Source: Ryuthela nishihirai
Taxonomy: Eukaryota; Arthropoda; Arachnida; Araneae; Heptathelidae
Length of the DNA: 64,000 nt
Assembly: GCA_038380435.1 (NCBI GenBank)
Contig: JAWZYU010000028.1
Coordinates: 42,095,095-42,159,094, forward strand
Direction: 5' to 3'
Below are positions 1-59,785 of this stretch, piece after piece. The position numbers and the translations under genes are program-made. How positions within the stretch are numbered: position 1 is the stretch's first letter; every line of letters starts with the position of its first letter. The notes below the pieces were generated by a model, which had not been told where the DNA came from, searched no databases, and saw nothing but the letters and a program-made list of their open reading frames with translations.

Positions 1-1494
1 AACTTGTCTACGCTAATCCGCTGAAATTTTATTTGCAACGGGTCCCTAGCGATTACTGGTTGTTGCATTTTTTACTAGAAGAAACCCTACCCCTGCAGCA
101 CCCGCAGAAAATAAAAAATGCTTTCGGGCGAAAAAATTAATAAAATCTGATTTTATTCGTCGTGATGAAAAATATTGATGGGGTAATAGGTTCGACTTAA
201 AAGACTTCGTGTTCGGATCCTCACCACGGACAACCTCTCGCTGACGGACGGTTAAACCCTACGAAATTATTCAAACGGGGAATCACAAGGTTTTTATTGA
301 CGAATGAATCTTGGACCTGTACTGCTTCCGTACATCGTGAAAACCCACTCACAGCCTTGATCCGTGTTCCCAATTTCCTTTACTAAGTCACTTCAAAAAA
401 CATTGTGATTGCAAAAGTATGACTAACAGTTTTATTACGCCACGTTTTAAAAATACTTATTACTGCTGTATCCGCGGTACGGGAGAGTAACACTGTTCGA
501 AGAAAATTCAGGTAAAACAGTTTAAAAAGAAAAATCGTTTCCTCCGTCGTTTGCGTATGTCTCATCACGCTGGTGAAACCGGGTGAAAAAAATTTTTTTT
601 TGTACGAGGTAGAATGTTAAAAGTACGTCGCGTGCAAAAACTTTAGTTCCATCACGAATGCACATTAATGGAGTAGGGAGGTCGTAGTTTAATACTTCAG
701 CTATAAAAAAAAATAATACAATGTCTCACACACACCTCTCCACTTGTCTACACTAATCCGCTGAAATTTCATTTGCAACGGAGGCTGATACTTCGAATCC
801 GCTATATGTTCCGGAGCTGCAGTGGAATGCATGGCCCCTGCTGAATGCTACGCTATCAGAAGTCCATGTGGCTGTCACGTTCTCCAAGCGCTCAGAATAT
901 TACTATACTTATAACTGATCTAATATTACTTATAACTGATCTAAAGTCCGTTTTAATCAATACTTATTTCTTTCAACTCTGCGACTATTGGGCTGGCACA
1001 TTTTCACTAGAAGGACCGCCTCACAGTGGCAATCCCACAGAAAAAATTAATAAAAGGAAAAAATCTGATTTTATTCCCCCTGATGAAAAATATTGAAGGT
1101 AATAGGGTCGACCTAAAAGGCCCGTGTTCGGATCCTTGCCCCGAATGGTTTTTAACAAAAGTCCTACGAAATTAAAAACTATCCCGTTACACGACGGCGT
1201 TGTTTAAAAATACTTATTACGGCTGTATCCACAGCAAACTCTTTCCTAGGAAGTAACGCTACTCGATGCAGCCCCAGTTACATGCTTTTACCGGGTAAAG
1301 ACTGTGCGTCAGAATGGTAAAAGTAGAATTCATACGTTTCCGTAAAAAAAAAAAAACTTTAGTTCCTGCTTAAAGGAGTATGGTTCGATTCAGGAAGAAT
1401 AGGATTTGACCTCGTGCATTAGAAAAAAGAACAAATCCGTCCCCGGTGCCCTTTGTTAGGTTGTAGTATTAGGATCCTTATACAAGCTCACTTC
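1..1494. repeat. Left-arm mirror of the 740-bp tandem units
   Basis: Reverse complement of 6930-8422 in the right arm: one well-conserved unit (about 1-742) and one diverged unit (about 743-1494). The array probably continues left of the window, because the right-hand array runs about 700 bases beyond the point that pairs with position 1. Confidence 0.8.
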
Positions 1495-3329
1495 AAATAT
1501 TCATGTGACATTCTGGGGTTGAGTTTCAACCTTTTTATTTTTTCCAACCGCGATAATGCGCAGTTTTCTGCGGAACGCGAGCGACCTCGACGCCAAGGAC
1601 GACCCGCACTAAACGGTACGACCGTGCACTAGAAAACCGTGAACGGACTTGTGTGAAACGTAATGTACAGAGCTTGACAACAGTAATGTAGACTGGGATC
1701 CTCGCTCACTATACTATCATAACCCTCGAGAAATTATCAAATATGAATAGACCTCTGTAAAGTTCTGACCCCACAATCTTCTGAGTTCATTCCCCGGTCG
1801 ATGCTGTCAGGATCACAAGGGATGTTTTACACATTCAACGACTTTTTCTGACATTCGCTAATCAAAGTGTCTATCTACACATCAGACTTGTCATTACATC
1901 GACAAACTACGTGTCCATAGGCTGAGTAAGCATTTAGAATGAAAAATTGAGTCTGCTTCACGACACACATTCGTAAAACGCTCATTAATTATTTTGTGAG
2001 AGAAAGCATGCATAAAGTTCAAACACTAATACATCTTCCCTTTCTAAAAAATCTGAAAAACTCACTGGAAAACAACAATATTTCCGTGAAAAATTAGGTC
2101 CCTGAATCGAGCCCTAGTTCGCGGCGTTCACTGACTTCAACCACCGATGAAACTTAACGTAAGCTCTCTCGCTGTTAGTTCAAGGTGCTTTCACACGCTC
2201 TTTTCAGAGTTCCTGGCCCACCTACTACGTTTCAATAAGCGCATAAGTGTGTGTGTGTGATGGTGGCTAGCTACAAACACAAGTTTCGCTACAATATAAC
2301 ACTGAGATGTTTGTTTAGTTATTTTTCTCTATTTCTATACTAGTGGTACAGTGCGAAAGTGGTTAGCACACGTTTTTTATATGTATCCTGTTTGTAAATA
2401 ACACTGTCTATGGACCATTACTCCTGTACATACCATAAGCATAATACCTCGCGATTCTAAGAGTCCCCCGAACCGGTATTAATCTTATTTTTGTAGTTCA
2501 ACGGAGTGCTTTGAGCTTGCTCGACCGCTGTCATGGGTTGGACCGGTAGCGGCCCACATATTTAATCCAGAATTAGTACATGCAAACATTTTCTTTTGTA
2601 ATCGTATCAGGTGTAGAGCAGAACAGGATACTTCAATCATCAGGACAAACAATATTGCAGAAGTGAGAAAGAGAAGCGACAGGAAAGCACACTACCTGCA
2701 ATCATCACCTCAAAACAACTAAGACAGAGGGCGCCACGTGCAGGGTTGAAAAGCAGTTCATAACAATGGTTTAACCATTCATTTTTTTTTAAGTGTTAGG
2801 ATATTCATGTTACAATTTCTTACAACAGGTTCATAGCTAGTGAAGACACAAGTCAGCAACACTCACACCTCTGTGTAAGCACACGAATATTACATTTCAA
2901 CAACGTACACTTTTCGTGTGAGTATGTGAATATTACATTTTAGCTGTATGTGCACTAGACGTTCAGTTGCGAAGAATATTTAAAAACATCAGTGCAAACT
3001 CACTGAAGCGTGTCTCTTTCTTGTGTCTCTCCATATCTATATACTATTCTTATGAGCATAAAAGATAGAACTTTCGAAGTAAGATGAAGCATGTATCGGT
3101 TAAAAAAAAAAGATTTTGAGCTTTTCACCAACGCCATCTAGGGACAACAATGTTGACTGTCTGATTCAAGCAATCTATGAATATGTAGGAGAATGTTTCT
3201 CTGATCTTATGCAAAGTATATTCTTGTGTGGTGTATGGCATTATTCAACGGATGTCTTTCTAAGTGTATGCACATATCCGTGCGATGGACTAAGTTTTTT
3301 CTCACATACTTGATTCGTCTCTGTAATTG

Positions 3330-3545
3330 TATGCTTTCATGTTTGTGAGTGTGTGCGTATGTTTCTGTGTGCGGGCGAGTGTGTGTGTGAGTGTGAGTAT
3401 GTTTCTGTGTGCGGGCGAGTGTGTGTGTGAGTATGTTTCTGTGTGCGGGCGACTGTGTGCGTGAGTATGTTTTCATGTTTGTTTCGCTGAATCTGATATG
3501 TGTATACGTCTTCATGTCTCTCTCGGTGTGTCTGTATGTGTGTAT
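3330..3545. repeat. GT-rich minisatellite, left arm
   Basis: About four to five imperfect units of about 35-40 bases made of tgtgtgcgggcgagtg-type blocks plus (GT)n. Translated ORFs through it are Thr/His-rich low-complexity strings and are not genes. Confidence 0.85.
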
Positions 3546-3805
3546 ATGTTACCGTAGGCAAGAATAAACATATTGTCTTACGGACACTTGCTCGCTACAG
3601 AAGAAGCTAACAATTTACAAACCTCGTCAGATCGGTATTATAGCTCTATTAGGAAATCTCATCGAAAAGTCACTAAACAGATAAGTTTACTAAAGATGCA
3701 CGCTTGTATACAATTTTTCAGATTCTTTTACCTTTCTCGATTCTGTTAAGTAGAACAATGAAATAGCATTGCAGGAAAAAAATCTTTTATTCATACACTA
3801 AGAAA

Positions 3806-4120
3806 TTACAAGGACGACCCATCAGATATAGAACAGAAATTAGTAACACTATTACATTTATTTAGTACATATTCAGAGGCTCGCACCAGTTCGTCATACA
3901 CTTCGTTTAGTAATATAGAAAAGTGTAGCATGTAGGAATCTTCAACTCCTGCCTCTTCCACAAAAAGTTTAGCGATATCGCTTAAATGAATGTTTCTCAC
4001 TGCCTCGGCGAAACGGGATATGGCCACACACGAATGGCGAAGCTGACTTGAATGATCTACTTCACACCCAATTCGTGTTCGTACGTAGAATCCGAAAAAT
4101 GTCTTTTCTGACGAGTGTAT
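3806..4120 (-). CDS. Unrecognised small ORF, mirror copy (left arm)
   Basis: Same open frame as 4304-4618 on the opposite strand, ending at 3806, with an AATAAA (minus strand, 3786-3791) just downstream. The 73 C-terminal residues are identical although the arms differ at several bases here (including silent changes near 4016-4026). The two copies diverge outward from the palindrome centre. Confidence 0.3.
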   Translation of the reverse strand: MHSSEKTFFGFYVRTRIGCEVDHSSQLRHSCVAISRFAEAVRNIHLSDIAKLFVEEAGVEDSYMLHFSILLNEVYDELVRASEYVLNKCNSVTNFCSISDGSSL

Positions 4121-4303
4121 TTAATGTTTTTCTGAAACTTAGCTTTGCTCTCTGAACGTGCAGTTCAGCATTAGACAGTCTTGGAGTAAGGGATGTCGAA
4201 TTATCTACATTATTCTTAATTAATTCGACATCCCTTACTCCAAGACTGTCTAATGCTGAACTGCACGATCAGAGAGCAAAGCTAAGTTTCAGAAAAACAT
4301 TAA

Positions 4304-4618
4304 ATACACTCGTCAGAAAAGACATTTTTCGGATTCTACGTACGAACACGAATTGGGTATGAAGTAGATCATTCAAGTCAGCTTCGCCATTCGTGTGTGG
4401 CTATATCCCGTTTCGCCGAAGCAGTGAGAAACATTCATTTAAGCGATATCGCTAAACTTTTTGTGGAAGAGGCAGGAGTTGAAGATTCCTACATGCTACA
4501 CTTTTCTATATTACTAAACGAAGTGTATGACGAACTGGTGCGAGCCTCTGAATATGTACTAAATAAATGTAATAGTGTTACTAATTTCTGTTCTATATCT
4601 GATGGGTCGTCCTTGTAA
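4304..4618 (+). CDS. Unrecognised small ORF next to the palindrome centre (right arm)
   Basis: An open frame runs from 4304 to the TAA at 4616-4618, about 104 codons. The C-terminal 73 residues are of balanced composition, with stretches such as FAEAVRNIHLSDIAKLF and ILLNEVYDELVRASEYV that look helical. It contains no early ATG, so it may be a terminal exon. An AATAAA lies 15 bases after the stop (4633-4638). A second open frame at 4223-4369 overlaps upstream and includes KLSFRKTLNTLVRKDIF. I do not recognise the protein. The mirror copy in the left arm encodes the same 73 residues, so the frame has survived the divergence between arms. Function unknown; it could be chance. Confidence 0.3.
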   Translation: MHSSEKTFFGFYVRTRIGYEVDHSSQLRHSCVAISRFAEAVRNIHLSDIAKLFVEEAGVEDSYMLHFSILLNEVYDELVRASEYVLNKCNSVTNFCSISDGSSL

Positions 4619-4878
4619 TTTCTTAGTGTATGAATAAAAGATTTTTTTCCTGCAATGCTATTTCATTGTTCTACTTAACAGAATCGAGAAAGGTAAAAGA
4701 ATCTGAAAAATTGTATACAAGCGTGCATCTTTAGTAAACTTATCTGTTTAGTGACTTTTCGATGAGATTTCCTAATAGAGCTATAATACCGATCTGACGA
4801 GGTTTGTAAATTGTTAGCTTCTTCTGTAGCGAGCAAGTGTCCGTAAGACAATATGTTTATTCTTGCCTACGGTAACAT

Positions 4879-5095
4879 ATACACACATACAGACACACCG
4901 AGAGAGACATGAAGACGTATACACATATCAGATTCAGCGAAACAAACATGAAAACATACTCACGCACACAGTCGCCAGCACACAGAAACATACTCACACA
5001 CACACTCGCCCGCACACAGAAACATACTCACACTCACACACACACTCGCCCGCACACAGAAACATACGCACACACTCACAAACATGAAAGCATAC
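4879..5095. repeat. CA-rich minisatellite, right arm
   Basis: Reverse-complement partner of the minisatellite at 3330-3545, with one or two base differences (a CGC/AGC codon-sized change within one unit). Confidence 0.85.
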
Positions 5096-6929
5096 AATTA
5101 CAGAGACGAATCAAGTATGTGAGAAAAAACTTAGTCCATCGCACGGATATGTGCATACACTTAGAAAGACATCCGTTGAATAATACCATACACCACACAA
5201 GAATATACTTTGCATAAGATCAGAGAAACATTCTCCTACATATTCATAGATTGCTTGAATCAGACAGTCAACATTGTTGTCCCTAGATGGCGTTGGTGAA
5301 AAGCTCAAAATCTTTTTTTTTTAACCGATACATGCTTCATCTTACTTCGAAAGTTCTATCTTTTATGCTCATAAGAATAGTATATAGATATGGAGAGACA
5401 CAAGAAAGAGACACGCTTCAGTGAGTTTGCACTGATGTTTTTAAATATTCTTCGCAACTGAACGTCTAGTGCACATACAGCTAAAATGTAATATTCACAT
5501 ACTCACACGAAAAGTGTACGTTGTTGAAATGTAATATTCGTGTGCTTACACAGAGGTGTGAGTGTTGCTGACTTGTGTCTTCACTAGCTATGAACCTGTT
5601 GTAAGAAATTGTAACATGAATATCCTAATACTTAAAAAAAAATGAATGGTTAAACCATTGTTATGAACTGCTTTTCAACCCTGCACGTGGCGCCCTCTGT
5701 CTTAGTTGTTTTGAGGTGATGATTGCAGGTAGTGTGCTTTCCTGTCGCTTCTCTTTCTCACTTCTGCAATATTGTTTGTCCTGATGATTGAAGTATCCTG
5801 TTCTGCTCTACACCTGATACGATTACAAAAGAAAATGTTTGCATGTACTAATTCTGGATTAAATATGTGGGCCGCTACCGGTCCAACCCATGACAGCGGT
5901 CGAGCAAGCTCAAAGCACTCCGTTGAACTACAAAAATAAGATTAATACCGGTTCGGGGGACTCTTAGAATCGCGAGGTATTATGCTTATGGTATGTACAG
6001 GAGTAATGGTCCATAGACAGTGTTATTTACAAACAGGATACATATAAAAAACGTGTGCTAACCACTTTCGCACTGTACCACTAGTATAGAAATAGAGAAA
6101 AATAACTAAACAAACATCTCAGTGTTATATTGTAGCGAAACTTGTGTTTGTAGCTAGCCACCATCACACACACACACACTTATGCGCTTATTGAAACGTA
6201 GTAGGTGGGCCAGGAACTCTGAAAAGAGCGTGTGAAAGCACCTTGAACTAACAGCGAGAGAGCTTACGTTAAGTTTCATCGGTGGTTGAAGTCAGTGAAC
6301 GCCGCGAACTAGGGCTCGATTCAGGGACCTAATTTTTCACGGAAATATTGTTGTTTTCCAGTGAGTTTTTCAGATTTTTTAGAAAGGGAAGATGTATTAG
6401 TGTTTGAACTTTATGCATGCTTTCTCTCACAAAATAATTAATGAGCGTTTTACGAATGTGTGTCGTGAAGCAGACTCAATTTTTCATTCTAAATGCTTAC
6501 TCAGCCTATGGACACGTAGTTTGTCGATGTAATGACAAGTCTGATGTGTAGATAGACACTTTGATTAGCGAATGTCAGAAAAAGTCGTTGAATGTGTAAA
6601 ACATCCCTTGTGATCCTGACAGCATCGACCGGGGAATGAACTCAGAAGATTGTGGGGTCAGAACTTTACAGAGGTCTATTCATATTTGATAATTTCTCGA
6701 GGGTTATGATAGTATAGTGAGCGAGGATCCCAGTCTACATTACTGTTGTCAAGCTCTGTACATTACGTTTCACACAAGTCCGTTCACGGTTTTCTAGTGC
6801 ACGGTCGTACCGTTTAGTGCGGGTCGTCCTTGGCGTCGAAGTCGCTCGCGTTCCGCAGAAAACTGCGCATTATCGCGGTTGGAAAAAATAAAAAGGTTGA
6901 AACTCAACCCCAGAATGTCACATGAAAAT

Positions 6930-9125
6930 TTGAAGTGAGCTTGTATAAGGATACTAATACTACAACCTAACAAAGGGCACCGGGGACGGATTTGTTCTTT
7001 TTTCTAATGCACGAGGTCAAATCCTATTCTTCCTGAATCGAACCATACTCCTTTAAGCAGGAACTAAAGTTTTTTTTTTTTACGGAAACGTATGAATTCT
7101 ACTTTTACCATTCTGACGCACAGTCTTTACCCGGTAAAAGCATGTAACTGGGGCTGCATCGAGTAGCGTTACTTCCTAGGAAAGAGTTTGCTGTGGATAC
7201 AGCCGTAATAAGTATTTTTAAACAACGCCGTCGTGTAACGGGATAGTTTTTAATTTCGTAGGACTTTTGTTAAAAACCATTCGGGGCAAGGATCCGAACA
7301 CGGGCCTTTTAGGTCGACCCTATTACCTTCAATATTTTTCATCAGGGGGAATAAAATCAGATTTTTTCCTTTTATTAATTTTTTCTGTGGGATTGCCACT
7401 GTGAGGCGGTCCTTCTAGTGAAAATGTGCCAGCCCAATAGTCGCAGAGTTGAAAGAAATAAGTATTGATTAAAACGGACTTTAGATCAGTTATAAGTAAT
7501 ATTAGATCAGTTATAAGTATAGTAATATTCTGAGCGCTTGGAGAACGTGACAGCCACATGGACTTCTGATAGCGTAGCATTCAGCAGGGGCCATGCATTC
7601 CACTGCAGCTCCGGAACATATAGCGGATTCGAAGTATCAGCCTCCGTTGCAAATGAAATTTCAGCGGATTAGTGTAGACAAGTGGAGAGGTGTGTGAGAC
7701 ATTGTATTATTTTTTTTTAAAGCTGAAGTATTAAACTACGACCTCCCTACTCCATTAATGTGCATTCGTGATGGAACTAAAGTTTTTGCACGCGACGTAC
7801 TTTTAACATTCTACCTCGTACAAAAAAAAAATTTTTTCACCCGGTTTCACCAGCGTGATGAGACATACGCAAACGACGGAGGAAACGATTTTTTTTTTTA
7901 AACTGTTTTACCTGAATTTTCTTCGAACAGTGTTACTCTCCCGTACCGCGGATACAGCAGTAATAAGTATTTTTAAAACGTGGCGTAATAAAACTGTTAG
8001 TCATACTTTTGCAATCACAATGTTTTTTGAAGTGACTTAGTAAAGGAAATTGGGAACACGGATCAAGGCTGTGAGTGGGTTTTCACGATGTACGGAAGCA
8101 GTACAGGTCCAAGATTCATTCGTCAATAAAAACCTTGTGATTCCCCGTTTGAATAATTTCGTAGGGTTTAACCGTCCGTCAGCGAGAGGTTGTCCGTGGT
8201 GAGGATCCGAACACGAAGTCTTTTAAGTCGAACCTATTACCCCATCAATATTTTTCATCACGACGAATAAAATCAGATTTTATTAATTTTTTCGCCCGAA
8301 AGCATTTTTTATTTTCTGCGGGTGCTGCAGGGGTAGGGTTTCTTCTAGTAAAAAATGCAACAACCAGTAATCGCTAGGGACCCGTTGCAAATAAAATTTC
8401 AGCGGATTAGCGTAGACAAGTTGAGAGGGGTGCGTGAGACATTGTATTATTTTTTTATAGCTGAAGTATTAAACTACGACCTCCCTACTCCATTAATGTG
8501 CATTCGTGCAGGGACTAAAGTTTTTGCACGCGACGTAGTTTTAACATTCTACCTCGTACAAAAAAAAAAATATTTTTTCACCCGGTTTCACCAGCGTGAT
8601 GAGACATACGCAAACGACGGAGGAAACGATTTTTTTTTTAAAACTGTTTTACCTGATTTTTCTTCGAACAGTGTTACTCTCCCGTACCGCGGATACAGCA
8701 GTAATAAGTATTTTTAAAACGTGGCGTAATAAAACTGTTAGTCATACTTTTGCAATCACAATGTTTTTTGAAGTGACTTAGTAAAGGAAATTGGGAACAC
8801 GGATCAAGGCTGTGAGTGGGTTTTCACGATGTACGGAAGCAGTACAGGTCCAAGATTCATTCGTCAATAAAAACCTTGTGATTCCCCGTTTGGAATAATT
8901 TCGTAGGGTTTAACCGTCCTTCAGCGAGAGGTTGTCCGTGGTGAGGATCCGAACACGAAGTCTTTTAAGTCGAACGTATTACCCCATCAATATTTTTCAT
9001 CACGACGAATAAAATCAAATTTTATTAATTTTTCGCCCGATAGCATTTTTTATTTTCTGCGGGGGCTGCAGGGGTAGGGTTTCTTCTAGTAAAAAATGCA
9101 ACAACCAGTAATCGCTAGGGATAAA
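6930..9125. repeat. Tandem repeat of about 740 bp (three units, right arm)
   Basis: The best-matched units run about 7680-8420 and 8421-9120. They share the same landmarks at an offset of about 741 bases, such as the segments starting at 7855 and 8596. A third, more diverged unit lies at about 6930-7680. Mirror copies of the first two lie at about 1-1494 in the left arm. Small ORFs of 61-120 codons in the units are not conserved as proteins and are treated as chance. The array looks like satellite DNA. Confidence 0.85.
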
Positions 9126-9616
9126 AGAAATAAGTGTTGGTTTTAAAATGGTTATAAAAATACGTATATGAAAAGACTGTCGGTGTAAGATCTAAATTTT
9201 AAAAGTGGGAGAGGGAGCCTACCCGCAATAACTATGTTATAAGAGTTGTTAATCCTAACACACTGTGTAAAATTATACTGAAGGTTAAACATCCCCAGTG
9301 CTCAGTCTTCTGATACGTGTCACTCGCTGGTCACGCCACGTTACTTTCCCCTTGTTGTGACGTCACCTACCCTCAGAGAACAACATCGTATGAGTCATCA
9401 CACTGCTGAGCGCTGGACACTCAACCTCCCAGGGCGATTGTGTCAGGAGATGTTTCGTTGCTACCTGACCGGTAAACGGACACGTGTGGGCATGACTCCA
9501 CGTACGACTTCAGGAATGCCTTTTCCATTGCAGGTTGGTTCTTGTTAGGAGTTCACAGAGTGAAGCTTGGGTAGCGCGTTCGACTCTCGTTGCCGAGGAG
9601 AAGTTTTTTTTTTTTT

Positions 9617-10305
9617 CGATAAAACGCCTCTACAGAAAACTGCTTTTTTTTAATAAAGGTAAGGGAATTTTGATGAGTGTTTAATTACTAGGGAGTTTAA
9701 TAGCAGGGAATTTTAATTATAAAGGAATCGTTTAGTCGTCCTGGCTAAATGAATAGCAAAGAGTTTTAATTACTAAGGAATAAATACAACTCTGCGAGTT
9801 GATTTACAATTTGAGATCTGCATTCAAAAGAGTTCAGTGCTAGTGTTGGCTTTGATGTAAGAAATACATAGAAAAAGCTAGTTATAAAGAATGCTAGGTT
9901 AATATCTGAAATGTTTGGCCCGCATCTAAATCACAGCAAGACAGTCGGACGGAATCCACAGAGCGAGGGACGATTTTTTTTTTTTTCCGGTGAAACACAT
10001 CTACAGAAAAACTGATTTTTATTTCGACCGTGGAGTGATTTTAATAAAGGTGAGGAATATTTTGACGAGTGTTTAATTACTAGGGAGTTGATTAACGGAG
10101 TTTGAAAATTTTTCCACTGCAGACGTGTGTTCTAAAAGCAGATTTAACATGTCATCCCTACGAATAATTTAAACCATTATTAATTTCACCCTATGGTATT
10201 TTCTATGGAAGCAGTAAGAGTAAAATGAGTTTCAACTGTAGGATGATTTTTAATAGAGGTAAGGGAATTTTGATGAGTGTTTAATTACTAAGGAATTTTG
10301 TATCA
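9617..10305. repeat. Dispersed degenerate repeats of about 80 bp
   Basis: Three related segments (9617-9700, 9985-10090, 10237-10305) share ctacagaaaa, taataaaggtaaggg and gagtgtttaattacta blocks. The sequence between them is AT-rich and shows no gene. Positions 9121-9616 and the gaps between copies hold nothing else I can identify. Confidence 0.7.
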
Positions 10306-10489
10306 TTCCTTTCTGTACAATTATTCTAAGACCAGTCAATCGTTCCATGCAATTATTCTGAGACTTGCATCAGCCGAGTGAAGGGGTGGGGCCTTAAAAT
10401 GGTCAACCAGAGAGTTTTTCATAAGGGGGAGGGCTTAAAATATAGGTCAACCATTGGGACAAAATAAAGAAAAATCGGGAATTAGAGTT

Positions 10490-10860
10490 AAAATAAGGAG
10501 GTTTTTCCGAAAATAGTACTCTTCATTGTCAACAGAAGGCATCAGGGTTTTTTCATAAGGGGGAAGAAATTTTTAATAGGGGGGAGTAATTTTTAATAGG
10601 AGGGGGAAATCAAAGAATTAAAATAAGGGTTTTTGGAGAATTAGTGTTCCTCACAGGCACCAGATGGCGCCAGGGGTTTTTTCATAAGGGGGAGGAATTT
10701 TTTTTATAAAGGGGGAAATCAAAAATCGAAGAATTAGAATAAAAATAGGGTTTTTTTGGGAAAATAGTACTTCTCACTGTCAACAGGTGGCGCCACTGAG
10801 GGGAAAGGGGGGGTGAAAGGGGGAGGAATTATTAATAAAGGTCGGTTACGTAATGATTAT
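10490..10860. repeat. Tandem repeat of about 120 bp with GGCGCCA motif
   Basis: Three imperfect units start near 10491, 10620 and 10739. Each has aaaataaggg, a gtcaacag/caccag block, ggcgcca or a decayed form, then ttcataaggggga. The strand is G/A-rich. Confidence 0.65.
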
Positions 10861-10880
10861 GTAATGATTACGCCATGCTG

Positions 10881-10936
10881 CGTCATAGGGGGCGTGGTCG
10901 GTGACGTCATAGGGGGCGTGGTCGGTGACGTCATAG
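10881..10936. repeat. 24-bp tandem repeat carrying TGACGTCA-type sites
   Basis: Two full 24-bp units and part of a third, each ending in gtgacgtcat. The TGACGTCA core matches the CREB/ATF site. No gene start is recognised nearby, so a regulatory role is only a possibility. Confidence 0.55.
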
Positions 10937-10974
10937 GGGGAAAGCACTAGTGGGGGTACGGTATAATATGACTA

Positions 10975-11195
10975 TACTACTCACATGGTATGGCTCTCTT
11001 GCATATTACACTGCGCCATGGTTTAACGTTTCATCAGACGGACAATGGCCTTCCCAAGCTCATCGGTGTTCCCTGCTGACCGAAGACAAGAGTTTCGGCT
11101 TGGAGGAGATTAATCTCACGATGGCCCAGGCGGGGCTTCAATATGAGAACTACAGATTATGAGCCTGGTGCGCTATCCACCGAACCAATCGCCGT
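10975..11195 (-). mobile_element. SINE-A fragment, diverged
   Basis: Head-side half of SINE-A in reverse orientation: decayed copies of the taacgtcccatccgacgg body block, then the reverse complement of the tRNA-like head up to about 11195. Confidence 0.75.
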
Positions 11196-11267
11196 CTCCA
11201 GATCTGGTCTTGAAGATCTGGTCTTCGAGCTAATGTATGATGGAGAAGATGTATATAGTAGTATATA

Positions 11268-12700
11268 CACTGACGGATATTTAAAAAAGAACACCCAGAA
11301 GGAATTCATTTAGGAACGTCATATTATAATACGTTAATAGCTAAGGGCAGCAGAAACCGTGATCCAAGATTGAAAGTCATTGGATAAAATAATGACGTCA
11401 CTGAGGACGACAACATGCAGATGTACGCTGCGCGTATTTAAGGACTAGGACGTGAAGAAAGAAGTTATTCGTCTTGTGTCGTGTTGTTCAATGCTCTTTG
11501 AAGAAGCTATCATGCCTGGATGATGCAGGCACGCAACATTTGTTCAGTTAACGGAGTTTGAGTGAGGTCGTATAGTGGGTCTTCAGGAAACAGGCTGGTC
11601 CTTTCGTCAAATTGCACACCACTTTGGACGAGAGGTATAGGCAGTGGTACGATGGTGGCGTCGATAGTTAGAATATCATCGCACACTCGCAGATATGGTT
11701 CGGGCGAACACAGAGTTACGGATGCACGAGAGGATAGGCGTATCTGGTGGGCGGCGATGGCAGGTCGAATGGCTATGGCGTCACAAATTCGATCCTCTGT
11801 CGCATCAAGGGTGTCTACAAGAACGATATGCAATCGTCTTTTGGAAGCAGGACTACAGGCATGCGTGCCGCTGGAACAGTTACCACTGTCACCTCGTCAC
11901 TGTCGAGCACGTTTACAGTGGTATCAAGAACGAGTTGATTGTAGGGAAGAATGGCAGTTTGTGGTCTTCAGTGATGAAAGCTGATTCTGCTTAGGAGCAT
12001 CTGATGGTCGTTTACGCGTCCGAAGGTGAAAAGGTGAGCAGCTTCTTCCATCGTGCATTCACCAGCGACACGCAGGGCCCTTGCCGGTCATCATGGTGTG
12101 GGGAGCGATTAGATATCACTCTCGTGCGTGTCTGGTGTTTGTACAAGGTACACTGAATAGCAATACTTACATCAGCAATGTTGTACAGCCGGTCGTCCTG
12201 CCATATTTGAGTGTAATCCCAAATGCGATATTCCAGCAGGATAACGCCCACCCACACTCCGCTCCGGGCAGCTCAACATGCTCTTCAGGCAGTGCACCAA
12301 CTCCCTTGGCCAGCACGCTCTCCGGACTTGTCTTCAATCGAGCATGTCTGGGAATGGATCGGACAAAGACTCTTCTGCAGACCGTGGCAGGCAACGACCA
12401 TCGCTGAATTTCGCGTCCAATTTCAAAGCGCATGGAATGGTATCCCCCAGCGTGATATCCAGCATTTGTACGCCCGATTGCATGTCAGATTGGAAGCTTG
12501 TATTGCGGCTCGAGGAGGTTCAACTCCTTATTAAAATGTGCCTTCTGTAAAATGTAATGCTTGTTAAAAGGTAAAATAAACATTGAATCACTTCACACGT
12601 GGGATCACCGTCCTTTTTGAAAAAGTTGTTTCTAATAAATGAATCTCATAGATTACGCTTCAATTGTTAATATTGTTCGTTTTTTCAATTTACACCAGTG
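11268..12700 (+). mobile_element. Tc1/mariner element (copy 1)
   Basis: Flanked by TA (11266-11267 and 12701-12702). Both ends begin cactg, followed by A-rich inverted-repeat sequence with a shared gaaca. The interior holds a broken transposase in the left-to-right direction. Length of about 1.43 kb is normal for Tc1 elements. Confidence 0.85.
11543..12534 (+). pseudogene. Tc1-type DDE transposase pseudogene
   Basis: The coding sequence is spread over several frames by indels and stops. The N-terminal paired-type DNA-binding region includes GWSFRQIAHHFGRE near 11600. The catalytic region keeps the first Asp in FVVFSDES (about 11965), the second in FQQDNAHPH (about 12235) and the Glu in SPDLSSIEHVW (about 12335), matching the DD34E pattern of Tc1 transposases. 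The C-terminus is the typical ARGGSTPY followed by TAA at about 12532. At least three frameshifts make it inactive. Confidence 0.9.
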
Positions 12701-16682: not shown

Positions 16683-16899
16683 AAATAAAAAAATATAATA
16701 AATACCCCCTCAAGCAGCTGCTTGCCACAGAGGTCTGACAGGAGCCTGTCAGTTTATATGCCATAGTAGAAGATCTGAGAGGATGGCAGGACCTCAGCAG
16801 AAAAACGACACAAACAGCCATGCCTTACCCGGGGCTCGAACCCAGGTCCCCTAGATCAGTAGCCAAGCGCGCTAACCACTCGGCCATGGGACGGCTACC
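16683..16899 (-). mobile_element. SINE-B copy with target-site duplication
   Basis: Reverse-orientation copy: AT-rich (ATAA)n tail at left, ccccctcaagcagctgcttg, then the tRNA-like head ending cggccatgggacggct at right. Perfect 12-bp duplication gttcaatactta at 16671-16682 and 16900-16911. Confidence 0.93.
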
Positions 16900-21938: not shown

Positions 21939-23330
21939 TCAACCACTGAAATAATTTTTCTTTAACATCACAAATTTTTTTAAGTTAACTATTTCTCTAG
22001 AAAGCAAGTTAAATAGGTAAGGAATTTGATATGCTTTGGAATTTCGTCCGTAATTATTATAAAATTTTGGTTGTTTCAAAAAACCCATAGCCTTTTTTTT
22101 AGTAAACTTATTGTGGCAAATATTTTGCTTATAGATATCATCAAAGAAGTTATTGATAACAGAAACAAACATATATAAACTTTCAATAGGTAAAAATTTG
22201 AACAAACTGAATATATCGTCTTTCGTTGTAAGGGAATATTTAACTTCTGTATTATACAATCCTTTTAGAAGACTAAATTGTATTCTTTTAATTTTATTTA
22301 ATTCTGTCTTATAGACTGTTCCATAAACTGTTATCCCATACCTAATTATAGATTCAAAAAGTGCTTTATTTACTAAAATAGTTATCTGTGTATCAACAAA
22401 CATGTTAAGTTTCTTATTTTAAATGCTACAAATCGTAGTCTTGAACATATCCAATCAATATGTTTATTCCATTTCATTTTCGAATTCATTTTCAAGCTTA
22501 GGTAAATTATTTCATTTACTTCTTCTATTTTAGGACAATTGCATGTACCAGGTGATAAACCATCCAGCCTAGTACAACTTATTCGATGCTTAGTAATTCT
22601 TCTATTAAGTGTAGGTTGTTGAGAACCAATACACATAAATTTAGTTTTTTTCTCGTTTACACTCAGTTTGTTAAGAGAAAACCATTTAACTGCTTTATTG
22701 AAATCACTCTGTAGATTGCAAATAGCATATTCTAAATCTGAGTGGAAGTTGATTAGCACTGTATCATCAGCATACATATATAGTTTACTATCGAAATTAA
22801 TATTAGCCAAATAATTTATGTATATTTGAAATAGCATAGGGCCGAGAATAGATCCTTGTGGAACCCCAAAATTAATCTGAAATTTATCGCTAAAATTATC
22901 ATTTATTTTCATAACTATTTCTCTATATAATAAGTAGCTTTTAAACCATTCAAAAATATTCCCTCTTATAGCAAGTAAATATAATTTCTGTAGCAAGATA
23001 TCAATGTCAACTGAATCAAATGCTTTATTTAAGTCCATAAATACCGCAACGCATTTCTTTCCTATATTCAAATTAATATTTATATTATTAATAAGATCTT
23101 CCAAAAAGCTTTGCGTTCCCATACCTTTACGGAACCCAAATTGCTGACTTGACAGAAAATTCATTTTGTTCAAAACATTTTGCAAGCGATCTCCAACGTA
23201 TTTTTCCATTATCTTATCAAAAATTGTTAATAGAGTGATTGGTCTATAATTATTAAGATTCTTTTTTGATCCACTTTTATATACCGGACGAATAATTCCA
23301 ATTTTCATAGTTATTGGGATCTGAGAATTT
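21939..23330 (-). pseudogene. LINE reverse transcriptase (frameshifted)
   Basis: The upstream 308-codon frame (23308-22382) holds the RT domain: a KNLNNYRPITLL block, motif A VFMDLNKAFDSVD (residues about 89-101), motif B FGVPQGSILGP (147-157) and the catalytic YADD (179-182). The remaining 154 codons (22403-21939) hold the thumb and C-terminal region in another frame. The two frames overlap at 22382-22403, where the second LINE copy reads through without a shift. Coding continues upstream of the first ATG but hits another shift near 23340. Endonuclease not present. Confidence 0.92.
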
Positions 23331-23451
23331 TCAAAAATTTTATTTATAACAATTGTTTATTACATGAACAAAATTGCATTTACTTTCCTTTATGTATTTT
23401 GGTTTAATATTGTCAAATCCACAGAAGTGTTATATTTTAAGTGATAAAGGG

Positions 23452-36324: not shown

Positions 36325-37160
36325 TTCGGGCTAAATGGTAGGTCACATGGACCCCAAGGGCTTGGAGAAATTTGGGGGGTAGGGAGGAGACCCACTGGGT
36401 ATCAACCCCGTCGCAGGTAATTCCCGTCAAGGCCATCCAGCTGTTCTTTAGCGTGCATAGGATATCACTTTCTTTTGCACTCGGTGCCACGGCTCAACGT
36501 CCCATTTGATGGATGGCGTCTATTTCAAGCACATCGATGTCCCTAACTCCAAGAACAGGGCGGGGTTTTTACCGCAGATACATTTCGACGTCTATCTCAA
36601 TAATCCACAGCAATTTTCAAGCATATCAGTGTCCATTACGCCAAGGACAGGGCTGGGTTTTTCCGCAGTAAAATTTCAACGGCTCTCTGAGTAATGCACA
36701 GTAATTTTCAAGCACATCGGTGTCCCTTACTCCAAGGATAGGGCGGGGGTTTATCAGAGATAAATTTCAACGTATATATCAGTAATCTACAGTAATTTTT
36801 AAGCACATCGGTCTCCCTTACGCCAAGGACAGGGCGGGGGTTTTACCGCAGACAAATTTCAACGGCTATCTCAGTAATTCACAGTAATTTTCAAGCACAT
36901 CAGTGTCCCTTACTACAAAGACAGGGCTGGGGTGTTACAGCAAATAAATTTCAACGGCTATCTCAGTAATCCACAGTACTTTTCAAGCACATCGGTGTCC
37001 CTTACTCCAAGGACAGGGCGGGGTTTTACCGCAGATAAATTTCAACGGCTATCTCAGTAATCCACAGTAATTTTCAAGCACATCGGCGTCCCTTTCTCCA
37101 AGAACAGGGCGGGGTTTTACCGCAGATATATTTCAACAGCTATCTCAGCAATGCATAGTA
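36325..37160 (-). repeat. SINE-A whose body has been amplified into a 92-bp tandem array
   Basis: A reverse SINE-A fragment begins at 36325 and reaches its acatcgatgtccctaactcc region at 36526. From there a unit of 91-92 bases repeats seven times. The caagcacatc landmark lies at 36526, 36618, 36709, 36800, 36892, 36984 and 37075. Each unit carries tcggtgtcccttactcc, acagggcgggg and gcagataaatttcaacg, all homologous to one stretch of SINE-A. The tRNA-like head is not present after the last unit. The array ends about 130 bases before an exon. Confidence 0.9.
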
Positions 37161-37292
37161 ATTTGGCACTCCAATCACTGTCCCATCAATTTTTTTTCGT
37201 CTGAAATTTTAAATATGAAGTAAAATCAAAAATCTTTAATATTCTAATAGTTTCAAATTTGTTTTACAAGTTTTATTTTTTACCATTCGCAG

Positions 37293-37838
37293 ATACTTCC
37301 GAGTACGAATTAATCAAACACTTGAACCTTTCCTTCCCCACTGGTCATCTGGAGTATCTGAAGAAGCAGATTTTCCAATACATCAGCAGAACCGATCAAC
37401 GGATACGGGATGCAAGCTACGAGAGCAAGGACTTTGATCCATTCAGCAGCATCCATGACCACTCGGATAGCTATATGTACTCTTCCGATTCGGATGCTGG
37501 AGACAACTTTGATTTCTCACCGGATCTCTTCAACCAAGCTCTCCTTGTAAAGCAAGAGCCTGACCGACGTCATCGGAAGAGACCCTCTACGTCATCGTCA
37601 TGGCTTCAGATTGGTTCTCGGAACGAAGAAGCCAGCACGACTCCTCTCGTGGACACCGCCTCCGATCTCTTTCAGCCCATCAATACCGTCACTATGACTA
37701 CGCTCCCGAGCGTCCCTCGACGGCATCCTTGTGAGAACTTGAGATGTGAGTTTGGTGGTTTCTGTGTCCCCAATGAGGAGAGTGGAGGTTTCCGATGCCG
37801 TTGTCCTATCGGGAGGAAAGGTAGAACGTGTGAGATAG
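37293..37838 (+). CDS. Exon of an EGF/laminin-G matrix protein (linker plus EGF-like domain)
   Basis: Acceptor: a pyrimidine-rich tract ending ttcgcag (AG 37291-37292). Donor: a perfect GTAAGT (37839-37844). The exon is 546 bases, phase 1 at both ends. It encodes about 182 residues. First comes a non-descript segment (TSEYELIKHLNLSFPTGHLE). Then an acidic Ser/Asp-rich stretch (HDHSDSYMYSSDSDAGDNFD) and a Ser/Thr-rich linker. Last is one EGF-like domain with six cysteines spaced C-x4-C-x5-C-x10-C-x-C-x8-C. An S/T-rich linker before the first EGF and laminin G pair fits agrin- or pikachurin-type proteins. Extracellular. Upstream exons are not seen in the window. Confidence 0.85.
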
Positions 37839-37957
37839 GTAAGTCATTAAAATTAGTCATTTCTTACTAGGGTAAACAATTTTTTCGTTTTCAATCTGCC
37901 ATTTTCCAGTTGTAGTTGGCATTTACATTTTTGATTCGATGAACCTGTTAGATTGGT

Positions 37958-52683: not shown

Positions 52684-55600
52684 CATCATCATCATCATCC
52701 TCCTCAAGCAGCCATGGGCTACGGAGGTCCAACCAGACCGTGCAATTTAGTTCTCCAAGCAAGTCTATCCTGAGCTACATCTACTGCATCTGGCCACTGC
52801 ACACCAATTCTAACAAGGTCCTGTTTGACATTGTCTGCCCACCGCATCCTAGGTCTCCCCTTCTTTCTGAGGCCTTTAGGCACACTGTTCATAACCCTAT
52901 TCGCCAATCTATAATTATTCATACGGGCAACATGGCCAAACCAACGGAGTCTCTCTCTGCACAATATACTGCTTAAAGGAGGTTGCAAACTCCTTTTCCT
53001 AATCTCATCATTAGTTACAAAGTTGAACCACCTAATGCCCAAGATACTGCGTAAGCATCTGGAATCAAAAGCATCTAGTTTCCTGTTATCTTGTTTACAA
53101 AGTGTCCAAGTTTCACTACCATAACTAACCCTAGAAAGAACCAAACTATTATACAGTCTAATTTTAGTCTTTAGGTGTATACGCCTATTTCTCCACACTC
53201 TCCATAGATTCTTAAAAGTCCCAGCAGCAATCCCTATTCGTCTGTTAATCTCATGCCGCACATCACCATTATCTGTTACATAGCTCCCAAGATAATTAAA
53301 CTGTGACACCTGCTCAAGACTGCAACCATTCAGATTAACTGAATCACAGCCTGCCTGACCAATTTTCATCACTTTAGTTTTCTCTCTGTTTATAACCAAA
53401 CCTACTCTACTACCAGTCTCATCAACGGCTCGAATGAAAGAGTTCATCTCATCAACATCATTTGCCAGAAGGGCTAAATCATCAGCATAATCTAAATCAG
53501 AAATTTTCCTATCTCCAGCCCATTTAAGGCCAAAATCTTTCCCTTGAAGTGAATTTCGCATAACATAATCAATAACCAAGCTAAAGAGAAAAGGAGACAA
53601 AATGCACCCTTGTCGAACACCAGAAGTAATGCTAAACCAATTGCTACAAGCCTTACCAACTCTCACACACGACTCAGTGTTATTATAGAGAGCTTTCATA
53701 ATGTTAACTAACTTGTCTGGTATACCATATGATCTCACAATCAACCACAAATTATGACGATCAACAGAGTCGAAAGCCTTTTTGAAATCAACAAAGCTAG
53801 CAACCAAAGGTTTCTGAAACTCTAAACATTTCTCAAGAATCTGCCTAAGTGAAAATATCTGATCTACACATCCCCTACCACTTCTGAATCCACATTGCTC
53901 ATCACGCAATTGCCTGTCAACCAGATTCTTAATTCTATTAAGCACAATCATGGAAAGAACTTTACCTGGAACAGAGAGTAGGCTGATACCCCTATAGTTA
54001 TCACAAGAACTGCGATCACCTTTTTTGAAAATAGGGATAACAATAGCTCTGGTAAAATCCTTAGGAACCATGCCTTTATCATAAAAGAGATTCAGAATTT
54101 CAGTCATCCAAGTGGTAACCGAAACATTCCCAGCTCTAAGCATTTCCGTAGTAATTTCATCTACCCCTGGGGATTTATGAAGTTTAAGTTTAGAAACAGC
54201 CAAACTAACTTCAGATTGTGTTATAGGGCCAACATTAAAGCCACCAATGCATCTATCATCATTGCAAACAATGGGAGTAGAACTAACTACATTGTTTAGA
54301 ACATCACTGAAATGCTCAGCCCACCTAGCCATGACAGAATCCTCCCCTTCTATAACCTTACCTTGTTTATCCTTCAATCCTTGTATGCCTGTCCGTTTTC
54401 TACCACACAAAACATTAACTATCTGGTACAGCTCTCTGCTGTTGTGCTGTCTAACTGCTTCCTCGGCTTTGTCAGCCAAACCATCAAGCCAAAAATTTTT
54501 ATCAGCAGCTAACTGATCCTTTACAAGTTTATTAAGGTCTCTGTAATGCTTTCTATTAGGACTAGTAGGGTATTGATTAAGGGCATTCCTGCAGTTCTTT
54601 CTTTCCGAAATAAGCTCAAGTGCCTTATCACTCAGATAATTTTGCCTCTTCTGCTCCTTTTTTCCTAAAAGAGTACTGTTAGTGTCCAAAAAAGCCTGTT
54701 TAAAATGATCCCATTCTTCCTCAACTTCAGTAGTAAGCAAACCATGACTGTCATAATGACTAAGTAACCTATCATGGTAAGCTTTGGCTATAACTGGATC
54801 TTTCAGAGCTTCAGTATTAAAAGTAAATTTTTTAACCCTAGCACAACACTTTTTAAGTTTAAGTTGCAACACACTTTTAACAAGGTAATGGTCAGATCCA
54901 ATTTCAGCTCCCCTATATGCCCTGGTATTCCTAACAGAACTAGTCCATTTGCTGTTAATTAATACGTAATCAATCATATTCTTATGCAGCCCATCAGGTG
55001 AAACCCATGTGTACTTATGTATGTCGCGGTGTTTGTAATAAGTGTTAGTTATTCTGAATCCATTGAGTTTACTTACCTGTAGGAGACGTTGCCCATTGCT
55101 ATTGCAGCTACCAATACCAAAAGGGCCTATTACTCCTCCCCAAAGGTCAGAGTCAGTACCAACTTTGGCATTGAAGTCACCAAGAACAAGGGTAATATCT
55201 CCTTTCTTGACAGAATTCAAAATATCCTGAAGTTGTTCATAAAACCTATCCTTCTCATCCTCATCGGCATCCTCAGTGGGGGCATAACATCAGATAACAT
55301 TCAAGTCTTTAACGCTTGTCTGAAATTTAGCTGTAAGAAACCTTTCATTAATGCACTCATATCCTAGAAGAGCATCACTAGCGTGTCTGCTGAGAAGCAG
55401 ACCCACGCCTTGGTGATGCTTTTTGTCGTCCCTCCCTGAAAAGAGAAATTTAAGATTATTTTTAAGAATCTGACCTTTATCTGTCCATCTGGTCTCTTGC
55501 AAGCCGAGAATATCTAAATTATAACGGTGGAATTCTTGTGTGAGGACATCAAGAGAAAAAGCTCTGTGCAGAGTCCTCACATTCCAACTACCTATGGAGA

Positions 55601-56274
55601 GAAAATGGTTAGTGGGATGTTTAAAGAAACTATGTTTATTGAGAGAGGGAATGCCGACAATATCAAACAGCCCCCTAATCGCAGACATGGGGCAAAGACC
55701 CGTTCCCCCACTACTAAAGGCTGAAGCCATCTACACTGGAAGACTTACTCCAATGTAGAATTTGACGATGCCAATAGAAGCAAAGAGTTCAGGTGCCTGC
55801 GATGACTTCTGCTCAGGATTATCCACCAGCTGATAAACATATCCTGTGGATCTATTCACTTGGGGCTGTCAACCCACAAACAAAAAGAAAACACAGCGGA
55901 AGATTTTCCCTCCACAGAAGCCCACCAGTGCAGCAAAATCAGGATCCATAATCAAGCTCAGAGCCATATATCTGTCCAGTCCAGTAGGTTTATATGGTCA
56001 GCACCAGGACCCTGTGTGGTTGACCACTCCTCAGCAGGGTAGAAAAAAAAGAAAAGTAGCCATAGTTGTCCAGATCAGTAGGCCACACTAATCTGGCAGC
56101 CCTCCCCTTCCGTTCACTTCCACAAGAGAGTATCTCTTTTGAAAGTTACTAACGGTCCGCACCACGAGAAGGCGGGGTTGGACATTAGGTGCTAGGCCTG
56201 GCCGGTTCTATGCATCATCACAGGGGATTGGTGCATAGCTCTCCTTCCAGTGACTACCTAGCTACCATTTACGG
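52684..56274 (-). mobile_element. Full-length RTE-type LINE, one stop from an intact ORF
   Basis: 3.59 kb on the minus strand. The 3' end is a (GAT)n tail (catcatcatcatc on the + strand at 52684-52698), as usual for RTE elements. Then comes a very short 3' UTR (stop at 52719), a long ORF (55730-52719) and a 5' leader (55731-56274). An 11-bp target duplication flanks it, so the copy is complete. Inserted in the 5' flank of a SINE-B. Confidence 0.93.
52719..55730 (-). pseudogene. RTE-type endonuclease-reverse transcriptase, one in-frame TGA
   Basis: ATG at 55730-55728 is preceded by an in-frame TAG. The frame runs 1,004 codons to the stop at 52719, broken only by TGA at 55292-55290. Before the stop: endonuclease motifs GSWNVRT (residues 47-53), LQETRW (77-82) and GVGLLLS (108-114). 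After it, counted in the 833-residue part: LGDFNAK (13-19), YTWVSPDG with IDY, and GSDH (108-111), completing an APE-type endonuclease. RT follows: NYRGISLL (408-415), FVDFKKAFDSVD (476-487), GVRQGCILSP (534-543) and YADD (578-581). The C-terminus has RLRWFGHVARM and KGRPRMRWAD blocks typical of RTE/BovB proteins. Almost certainly recently active; the TGA makes this copy non-autonomous. Confidence 0.94.
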
Positions 56275-56850: not shown

Positions 56851-56877
56851 CTAGAGCAGTGTTCCTTAGATGTTTTT

Positions 56878-59019
56878 CTCCTATTGAACCTCACCTTAGA
56901 ACAATGTTTCTCTCCTATTGAACCTCACCTTAGAACAATGTTTCTCTCCTATTGAACCTCACCTTAGAACAATGTTTCTCTCCTATTGAACCTCACCTTA
57001 GAACAATGTTTCTCTCCTATTGAACCTCACCTTAGAACAATGTTTCTCTCCTATTGAACCTCACCTTAGAACAATGTTTCTCTCCTATTGAACTTCACCT
57101 TAGAAGAATGTTTCTCTCCTATTGAACCTCACCTTAGAAGAATGTTTCTCTCCTATTGAACCTCACCTTAGAACAATGTTTCTCTCCTATTGAACCTCAC
57201 CTTAGAACAATGTTTCTCTCCTATTGAACCTCACCTTAGAACAATGTTTCTCTCCTATTGAACCTCACCTTAGAACAATGTTTCTCTCCTATTGAACCTC
57301 ACCTTAGAACAATGTTTCTCTCCTATTGAACCTCACCTTAGAACAATGTTTCTCTCCTATTGAACCTCACCTTAGAACAATGTTTCTCTCCTATTGAACC
57401 TCACCTTAGAACAATGTTTCTCTCCTATTGAACCTCACCTTAGAACAATGTTTCTCTCCTATTGAACCTCACCTTAGAACAATGTTTCTCTCCTATTGAA
57501 CCTCACCTTAGAACAATGTTTCTCTCCTATTGAACCTCACCTTAGAACAATGTTTCTCTCCTATTGAACCTCACCTTAGAACAATGTTTCTCTCCTATTG
57601 AACCTCACCTTAGAACAATGTTTCTCTCCTATTGAACCTCACCTTAGAACAATGTTTCTCTCCTATTGAACCTCACCTTAGAACAATGTTTCTCTCCTAT
57701 TGAACCTCACCTTAGAACAATGTTTCTCTCCTATTGAACCTCACCTTAGAACAATGTTTCTCTCCTATTGAACCTCACCTTAGAACAATGTTTCTCTCCT
57801 ATTGAACCTCACCTTAGAACAATGTTTCTCTCCTATTGAACCTCACCTTAGAACAATGCTTCTCTCCTATTGAACCTCACCTTAGAACAATGCTTCTCTC
57901 CTATTGAACCTCACCTTAGAACAATGTTTCTCTCCTATTGAACCTCACCTTAGAACAATGTTTCTCTCCTATTGAACCTCACCTTAGAACAATGTTTCTC
58001 TCCTATTGAACCTCACCTTAGAACAATGTTTCTCTCCTATTGAACCTCACCTTAGAACAATGTTTCTCTCCTATTGAACCTCACCTTAGAACAATGTTTC
58101 TCTCCTATTGAACCTCACCTTAGAACAATGTTTCTCTCCTATTGAACCTCACCTTAGAACAATGTTTCTCTCCTATTGAACCTCACCTTAGAACAATGTT
58201 TCTCTCCTATTGAACCTCACCTTAGAACAATGTTTCTCTCCTATTGAACCTCACCTTAGAACAATGTTTCTCTCCTATTGAACCTCACCTTAGAACAATG
58301 TTTCTCTCCTATTGAACCTCACCTTAGAACAATGTTTCTCTCCTATTGAACCTCACCTTAGAACAATGTTTCTCTCCTATTGAACCTCACCTTAGAACAA
58401 TGTTTCTCTCCTATTGAACCTCACCTTAGAACAATGTTTCTCTCCTATTGAACCTCACCTTAGAACAATGCTTCTCTCCTATTGAACCTCACCTTAGAAC
58501 AATGCTTCTCTCCTATTGAACCTCACCTTAGAACAATGCTTCTCTCCTATTGAACCTCACCTTAGAACAATGTTTCTCTCCTATTGAACCTCACCTTAGA
58601 ACAATGTTTCTCTCCTATTGAACCTCACCTTAGAACAATGTTTCTCTCCTATTGAACCTCACCTTAGAACAATGTTTCTCTCCTATTGAACCTCACCTTA
58701 GAACAATGTTTCTCTCCTATTGAACCTCACCTTAGAACAATGTTTCTCTCCTATTGAACCTCACCTTAGAACAATGTTTCTCTCCTATTGAACCTCACCT
58801 TAGAACAATGTTTCTCTCCTATTGAACCTCACCTTAGAACAATGTTTCTCTCCTATTGAACCTCACCTTAGAACAATGTTTCTCTCCTATTGAACCTCAC
58901 CTTAGAACAATGTTTCTCTCCTATTGAACCTCACCTTAGAACAATGTTTCTCTCCTATTGAACCTCATCTTAGAACAATGTTTCTCTCCTATTGAACTCA
59001 CCTTAGAACAATGTTTCTC
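56878..59019. repeat. 34-bp tandem array, about 63 copies
   Basis: Unit cttagaacaatgtttctctc plus ctattgaacctcac. It is extremely homogeneous: most units are identical. A T-to-C variant (acaatgcttc) occurs in units near 57859, 57893, 58471, 58505 and 58539, and aagaatg units near 57116 and 57139. The first unit before the array (about 56851) is about 45 bases, with cttagatgttt in place of the missing 11 bases. So the 34-bp unit derives from the flanking minisatellite by deletion, then amplification. Confidence 0.97.
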
Positions 59020-59785
59020 GGCCTTTTTCTTTTCATTTCCATTTACCCACACTCTTTCCAATATATCTCAGACACTTATTTTTTCTTTTGAACCTCTTTC
59101 CTAGAGCACTGTTTACCACACATTTTTGTTCTGTTTAATTTCACTCCAAACCAGTGTTTCTCAAACGTTTTTCTTTCATTTCCGACTGAAGAAGACTTAA
59201 CTTTACCAATTATTTTCCACGAAAGACCAAATACAACGATCCTAAATGAAACAAGATCAGTTTACAAATGCGTTAACCATTTTAATTTGGCTTAAAAGAA
59301 ATCCGCATTTAAAACTAAATCAAAGCATCTTTTTTAAAAAATATAATTTAATCAGTCTCTCATAAATTCAAAGTTCAGCATTGAAACTGTGGAGAAGACT
59401 TACTAAAGTTTCTTGAAACTTTGTTGCAACAATAATTATTAATTATGTTATGCATTAAGGTAAGCTAAATATATTTCACGTTTATTAAATTATTTACTGA
59501 GTAAGAAATACAGTAGGAATTGGCATATTCTTAAATCCTATACAAAATTTATTAGTAAATTTTAAATGCGAAATTTCAACACAGTACATGAAAAAATGGC
59601 TCTGATAATAAAGCGTTTATACACAGTAGAAATGAGTGTTTTATATAAGGGGATTTTGATTATGCTCATGGATATCTTCTTTATATTTGCAGTACACCTT
59701 CATTACGATCACAGACTAACTTCAATATTAACGCAGACTACCTTCAAAGTCATCTCAGAGTATCTTCGTTATGCTTGCGGAGCAC
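59020..59785. other. No gene seen
   Basis: 59020-59200 has further degenerate minisatellite motifs (ctagagcactgttt, ccagtgtttctcaaac). The rest is AT-rich. Confidence 0.55.

Follow-up and report, generated by a model that had tools for sequence, protein, structure and literature searches.

We analysed a window of 64,000 bases, none of them ambiguous, from the spider Ryuthela nishihirai (contig JAWZYU010000028.1). Its first 8,422 bases form a near-perfect inverted repeat with visible arms of about 4.2 kb and a centre of 19 bases. We estimate at about one in two the probability that this palindrome is a fold-back join made in a read or in the assembly, with arms derived from two alleles. Such a join is slightly more likely than a real inverted duplication in the genome; deciding between the two takes raw reads. 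The parts of the inverted repeat are as follows.

1..4202, minus strand: left arm, visible part, clipped by the window start (BLASTN and global alignment).
4203..4221, no strand: centre (spacer) of 19 bases, ATCTACATTATTCTTAATT, flanked by perfectly paired inner arm ends (global alignment).
4222..8422, plus strand: right arm, visible part (BLASTN and global alignment).

In the BLASTN comparison of the window with itself, region 1-8422 matches its own reverse complement with E = 0. An inverted repeat of such length and identity cannot be due to chance. The arm limits and the differences between the arms were read from a base-by-base global alignment in which the left part was set against the reverse-complemented right part. 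The innermost stem consists of 46 bp without a mismatch. The 19-base centre is flanked by AATT on each side; without an unduplicated ancestor, a priming match is inseparable from the arm itself. The first-pass annotation of this DNA had described a near-perfect inverted repeat of about 4.2 kb at 1-8422, and both BLASTN and the global alignment reproduce it with these coordinates. The spacer, given there as 17 bases, has 19 bases in the alignment, the pairing beside the centre having probably been counted differently. The left boundary had been placed beyond the window. Indeed, the left arm pairs all the way to base 1, and its visible end is the window edge.

Over about 4,200 aligned bases, 13 substitutions separate the arms, a difference of 0.31%. 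The substitutions are at left-arm positions 529, 592, 703, 1473, 1499, 1586, 2795, 3239, 3447, 4004, 4022, 4065 and 4156; counted from the alignment, seven are transitions and six are transversions. There are also three length differences of one unit each, all in simple repeats: a dinucleotide CA at 727, a dinucleotide GT near 2246, and a single A of the poly-A run at 1344. Substitutions and length changes together bring the total to about 0.4%, not the approximately 1% of the first-pass annotation. The individual substitutions noticed there are present: position 3239 versus 5185 is C/T in the left-arm orientation, and those seen near 4016-4160 belong to the inner cluster at 4004, 4022, 4065 and 4156.

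A fold-back artefact is expected to have arms that are reverse complements of each other and a spacer that is short or missing, and this is the arrangement found here by both BLASTN and alignment. One chimeric molecule or read would have turned at 4203-4221. A single-stranded end may have folded onto itself and been filled in, with both strands then read as one, and the assembler would have run back over the same locus. One of the arms, probably the right one, whose flank is visible, would represent the true locus. The other arm would be the opposite strand of the same locus, taken either from the other haplotype or from a consensus with thin coverage, and the 0.31% difference would be a mixture of allelic variation and some consensus error. 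We infer that the left arm is the copy, its course beyond base 1 being out of view.

Several observations are consistent with the fold-back join. Firstly, the palindrome reaches base 1 of the window and no left flank is in view, as would be the case for a fold-back at a contig end, if base 1 is one. Secondly, the right arm runs seamlessly into its surroundings, where the following features were observed.

7644..8380, plus strand: first copy of a tandem unit of about 738 bases, inside the right arm (BLASTN, alignment).
8382..9121, plus strand: second copy of this tandem unit (BLASTN, alignment).
9122..10981, plus strand: flank past the tandem unit, lacking a repeat of about 390 bases that is interspersed in the rest of the window, and containing short diverged local repeats of itself (self comparison of 4212-12000).

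The tandem copies are 96.6% identical (16 mismatches in 743 columns, BLASTN), and the mirror of the first copy lies in the left arm at approximately 42-779. The visible right arm stops 41 bases into the second copy. Position 8422 is not a natural biological boundary, because the tandem pair crosses it. The 390-base repeat was not found in the first 10.9 kb of the window, its first match being at about 10982, and the zone free of it spans the right arm and the flank up to about 10.98 kb. As the tandem pair crosses 8422 and this zone extends so far, the right arm is continuous with its flank. Finally, searches of Pfam, PDB, protein and viral-contig collections and the comparison of the window with itself did not reveal any recognisable element or gene at the centre.

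Reads of this type have been described for several technologies. Fold-back reads constitute 0.55-0.6% of nanopore genomic reads in one report (PMC12870357), and inverted-repeat reads constitute 0.18-7.33% in another (PMC13141652). For PacBio, the figures given are 11.8% and 45.8% of fold-back reads in two whole-genome-amplified data sets versus 0.5% in an unamplified control; according to the same source, missed SMRTbell adapters yield the same structure and can damage assemblies (PMC6218980). The arrangement in the window resembles such artefact reads and inverted assembly joins in that a sequence is followed by its own reverse complement, the spacer is short or absent, and one unique flank is in view. 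It differs from them in the 13 substitutions between the arms, which are too many for one molecule read twice after consensus and have to be explained by two alleles or by poor coverage.

Long palindromes, including those with short spacers, are described as unstable in every organism into which they were introduced and rare in natural genomes (PMC10766186). A divergence of 0.31% around an intact 19-base centre is hard to reconcile with this instability, whereas two alleles of one locus do not need any survival of the palindrome. A difference of 0.3% is unremarkable between two alleles of one locus. Thus the fold-back join is placed above a real duplication, because palindromes are unstable and rare, whereas the observed difference is ordinary for alleles. 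Being ordinary for alleles, the level of divergence in itself does not choose between a real duplication and a chimeric join.

A number of observations weigh against the fold-back join. The 13 substitutions are accompanied by only one homopolymer-length change, though the left arm contains 18 runs of at least six bases; this is unlike one molecule read twice. Further, derived states are present in both arms. When the second tandem copy (8382-9121) serves as the outgroup, the derived state is in the left arm at 529 and in the right arm at 703. Site 529 sits in a T run, and its polarity is modest evidence. Site 592 lies where an A run and a T run of differing lengths meet, and the naive reading would make the left arm derived there; the polarity of the CA length difference at 727 is not safe by this outgroup. 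Since the differences are mostly substitutions and each arm has a private change, they look like real variants, and at face value they suggest that two distinct versions of the sequence exist, which argues against an artefact of the simplest kind, in which a single molecule is read twice and the consensus is good. The arms would then be two real sequences, unless the joining of two haplotypes or a poor consensus is added. Two versions are compatible with a fold-back join that returned along the other haplotype, or with a thin consensus at a contig end. In addition, three PacBio samples are reported to be without systematic fold-backs, with virtually none in HiFi reads (PMC12870357). No familiar sequencing adapter was recognised in the spacer by eye.

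The last of these points is the one-sidedness of the differences. At every site where the difference changes the GC content, G or C is on the left arm and A or T on the right (9/9, two-sided p = 0.004, the test having been picked after seeing the data). At the remaining A/T sites, the left arm has A and the right arm has T in four cases of four, in the left-arm orientation. Randomly joined alleles should not be one-sided, and the pattern is also unexpected in a real duplication if both arms mutate alike. Neither a fold-back join nor a real duplication accounts for it. CpG decay was considered as its cause and dropped, because just one of the nine GC-changing sites (3447) lies in a left-arm CpG, and the observed/expected ratio of CpG is 1.07 in both arms.

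The alternative is a real, fairly recent inverted duplication in the genome of the animal, which we hold to be quite possible, if somewhat less so than an artefact. The first-pass annotation had likewise suggested a real, though aged, inverted duplication, with a fold-back chimera as the contrary case. The proposed route is that a broken end or a stalled fork would fold at a short inverted match, for example the AATT beside the centre, and be extended, and the hairpin would be replicated to a palindrome. The arms could then have gathered separate mutations. Judged by substitutions alone, the 738-base tandem duplication, which the palindrome copied, would be about seven times as old as the palindrome itself: the tandem copies have 16 mismatches in 743 columns and the arms have 13 in about 4,200. 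Real evolution would be expected to give what is seen, namely mostly substitutions, changes private to each arm, and three simple repeats altered by one unit each. The short spacer also suits hairpin fold-back: inverted duplications in yeast are reported to arise at inverted repeats of 3-15 bp, one site studied has an imperfect repeat of 11 bp and a spacer of 6 bp, and Mre11 is described as less active on hairpins with spacers longer than 12 nt (PMC10622511). Arms of human Y palindromes are reported to be held alike by gene conversion (PMC3723533). Four of the 13 substitutions lie less than 200 bases from the centre, which could also be seen as favouring a real duplication (naive p = 0.0026, which holds if the inner 200 bases are chosen in advance). 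However, clustering at the centre is not significant by the scan statistic (p = 0.17) or by the Kolmogorov-Smirnov test (p = 0.29). Nanopore reads over real inverted duplications are described as badly called near the junction (PMC7229812), and therefore a real duplication in a nanopore assembly could carry errors near its centre.

Several reports describe inverted duplications that arise when DNA folds back at short inverted repeats (PMC10622511, PMC3907307, PMC10766186). The window shares with the fold-back inverted duplications and the origin-dependent inverted-repeat amplification (ODIRA) junctions of yeast and human the inverted copies, the short unpaired centre and a possible short inverted match beside it. 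However, all 21 junctions of human fold-back duplications that were sequenced are reported to have spacers of 766-70,466 bp (PMC3907307), and the spacers of ODIRA sites in yeast are 40-80 nt (PMC10766186), so that the 19-base centre is shorter than either. Here the arms are 4.2 kb as far as visible, and the outer junction, which would be the proof of a real duplication, lies beyond the window. Moreover, a centre still intact after 0.31% divergence demands long survival of an unstable structure. Another comparison is with the human Y-chromosome palindromes, which also have arms that are more than 99% identical. Their arms are far larger and mostly gene-bearing, and the spacer of P6 is given as tens of kilobases (PMC3723533), whereas the arm considered here has no recognisable gene.

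If the palindrome is the artefact that we favour, large inverted repeats that lie where an assembled sequence ends need to be checked against reads before any biological reading, and allelic differences can lend a fold-back join an aged look. If it is real, a near-perfect palindrome with hardly any spacer would have survived unusually long in an animal genome, and it would be a useful natural test of how such structures withstand breakage. A reading that seems unlikely is that the palindrome is real and has persisted in the germline of an animal while its arms, each 4.2 kb or longer around the 19-base centre, diverged by 0.3%, one of them being consistently richer in G/C at the differing sites (nine of nine). 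If this were true, breakage at the centre would be escapable, with one-directional or GC-biased exchange between the arms.

The arms were also analysed for gene and repeat content. One open frame near the centre was considered.

4304..4618, plus strand: open frame of 104 codons, mirrored in the left arm and not claimed as a gene (shuffles, homology searches).

By eye, this frame resembled a last exon with a possible poly-A signal. It was rejected as a gene at the centre, its length being ordinary and no relative having been found. Indeed, a stop-free stretch of at least the same length occurs in 103 of 200 dinucleotide shuffles of the arm. The frame has no relative in Pfam, among PDB structures or in a large protein collection (one candidate, not scoring), and one scan of viral contigs for a possible viral origin gave seven pattern matches, none of which was confirmed. 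Three arm differences fall inside the frame, of which two would be silent and one would not, which is uninformative either way. The 17 stop-free stretches of at least 60 codons in 4212-9200, one of which had been shortened by a codon so as to start at its ATG, were all compared with Pfam, accepting matches with E up to 0.1, and none reached the curated cut-off. Weak matches below the cut-off to DAP10 (E = 0.014) and DarT (E = 0.042) were taken as chance, being approximately the number expected for 17 stretches. No Rfam family was found in the window at the gathering threshold.

The inverted repeat is not one of the interspersed repeats of the window, because only 0.2% of the 14-mers of the arm occur again in the window once the block itself and 5 kb on either side of it are set aside. 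The same value is 12.6% for the next block (8.4-12.6 kb). Of the 12 full blocks of 4.2 kb in 12.6-63 kb, 11 gave 5-32%, and the twelfth (54.6-58.8 kb) gave 0%. Neither the repeat comparison nor the recurrence of 14-mers revealed a second copy of the arms within the window. The 13-mer CCCTTACTCCAAG occurs at 4232, 36724 and 36999, and in reverse at 4180, which could have linked the centre to the tandem array at 36523-37164. This link was dropped, because several 13-mers shared by the arm and the rest of the window are expected by arithmetic.

These data bear on two more explanations. One is a large transposable element of the fold-back type, with inverted termini meeting at a short middle, as had been suggested in the first-pass annotation. 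Fold-back (FB) elements of Drosophila have long inverted arms containing tandem repeats. The palindrome is similar: its inverted arms are very long, the middle is nearly absent, and the outer part of each arm contains tandem repeats. However, apart from this shape the suggestion found no support: the window does not contain another copy of the arm, none of the stop-free stretches in 4212-9200 resembles an element gene at the Pfam cut-off, and the tandem pair runs past the visible arm end, which thus lies inside an older local tandem repeat, the ends of any element being out of view. We regard a fold-back element as very improbable.

The other is a hairpin-RNA locus, where a transcribed palindrome would yield long double-stranded RNA and then small interfering RNAs, which would target a gene or an element that has sequence in common with the arm. 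Such loci are reported in flies, where they silence selfish genes (PMC10317233, PMC10292708). The near-perfect arms and the short loop are of the required geometry. However, no recognisable target gene or element was found in the arms by searching the window and the libraries, and the palindrome would first have to be real; this explanation is given slightly less credit than a fold-back element. The probability left over by the fold-back join and the genuine duplication is shared by these two and by unforeseen explanations.

The remainder of the window is animal-like and repeat-rich. The repeat of about 390 bases was observed at no fewer than 26 places in 10982-63124, on both strands, the copies being approximately 70-96% alike. 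A fragment of a Tc1-type transposase is present at 11562-11984, and a reverse transcriptase frame at 22382-23356. Long frames of the LINE (long interspersed nuclear element) type with endonuclease and reverse transcriptase occur as two adjacent pieces on the minus strand at 52719-55730. A candidate tRNA-Ser gene with anticodon ACT was predicted by ARAGORN on the minus strand at 16821-16892; it lies in a repeat-rich stretch and may be a repeat-derived false call. The frame at 37205-37867 is EGF-like, with a Pfam E-value of 0.0008, just under the curated cut-off, and its nearest solved chains are those of Notch1 (E = 8e-6) and agrin (E = 0.0085). Directly upstream of it is the array at 36523-37164, which has a 91-base tandem unit. 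Three other tandem arrays were observed near the right end of the window: a 34-base unit in about 63 copies with 99% matches (56870-59019), accompanied by strong negative GC skew; a 43-base unit in about 17 copies (59781-60518); and a 30-base unit in about 18 copies (61241-61794), which is open in three minus-strand frames over 188-248 codons.

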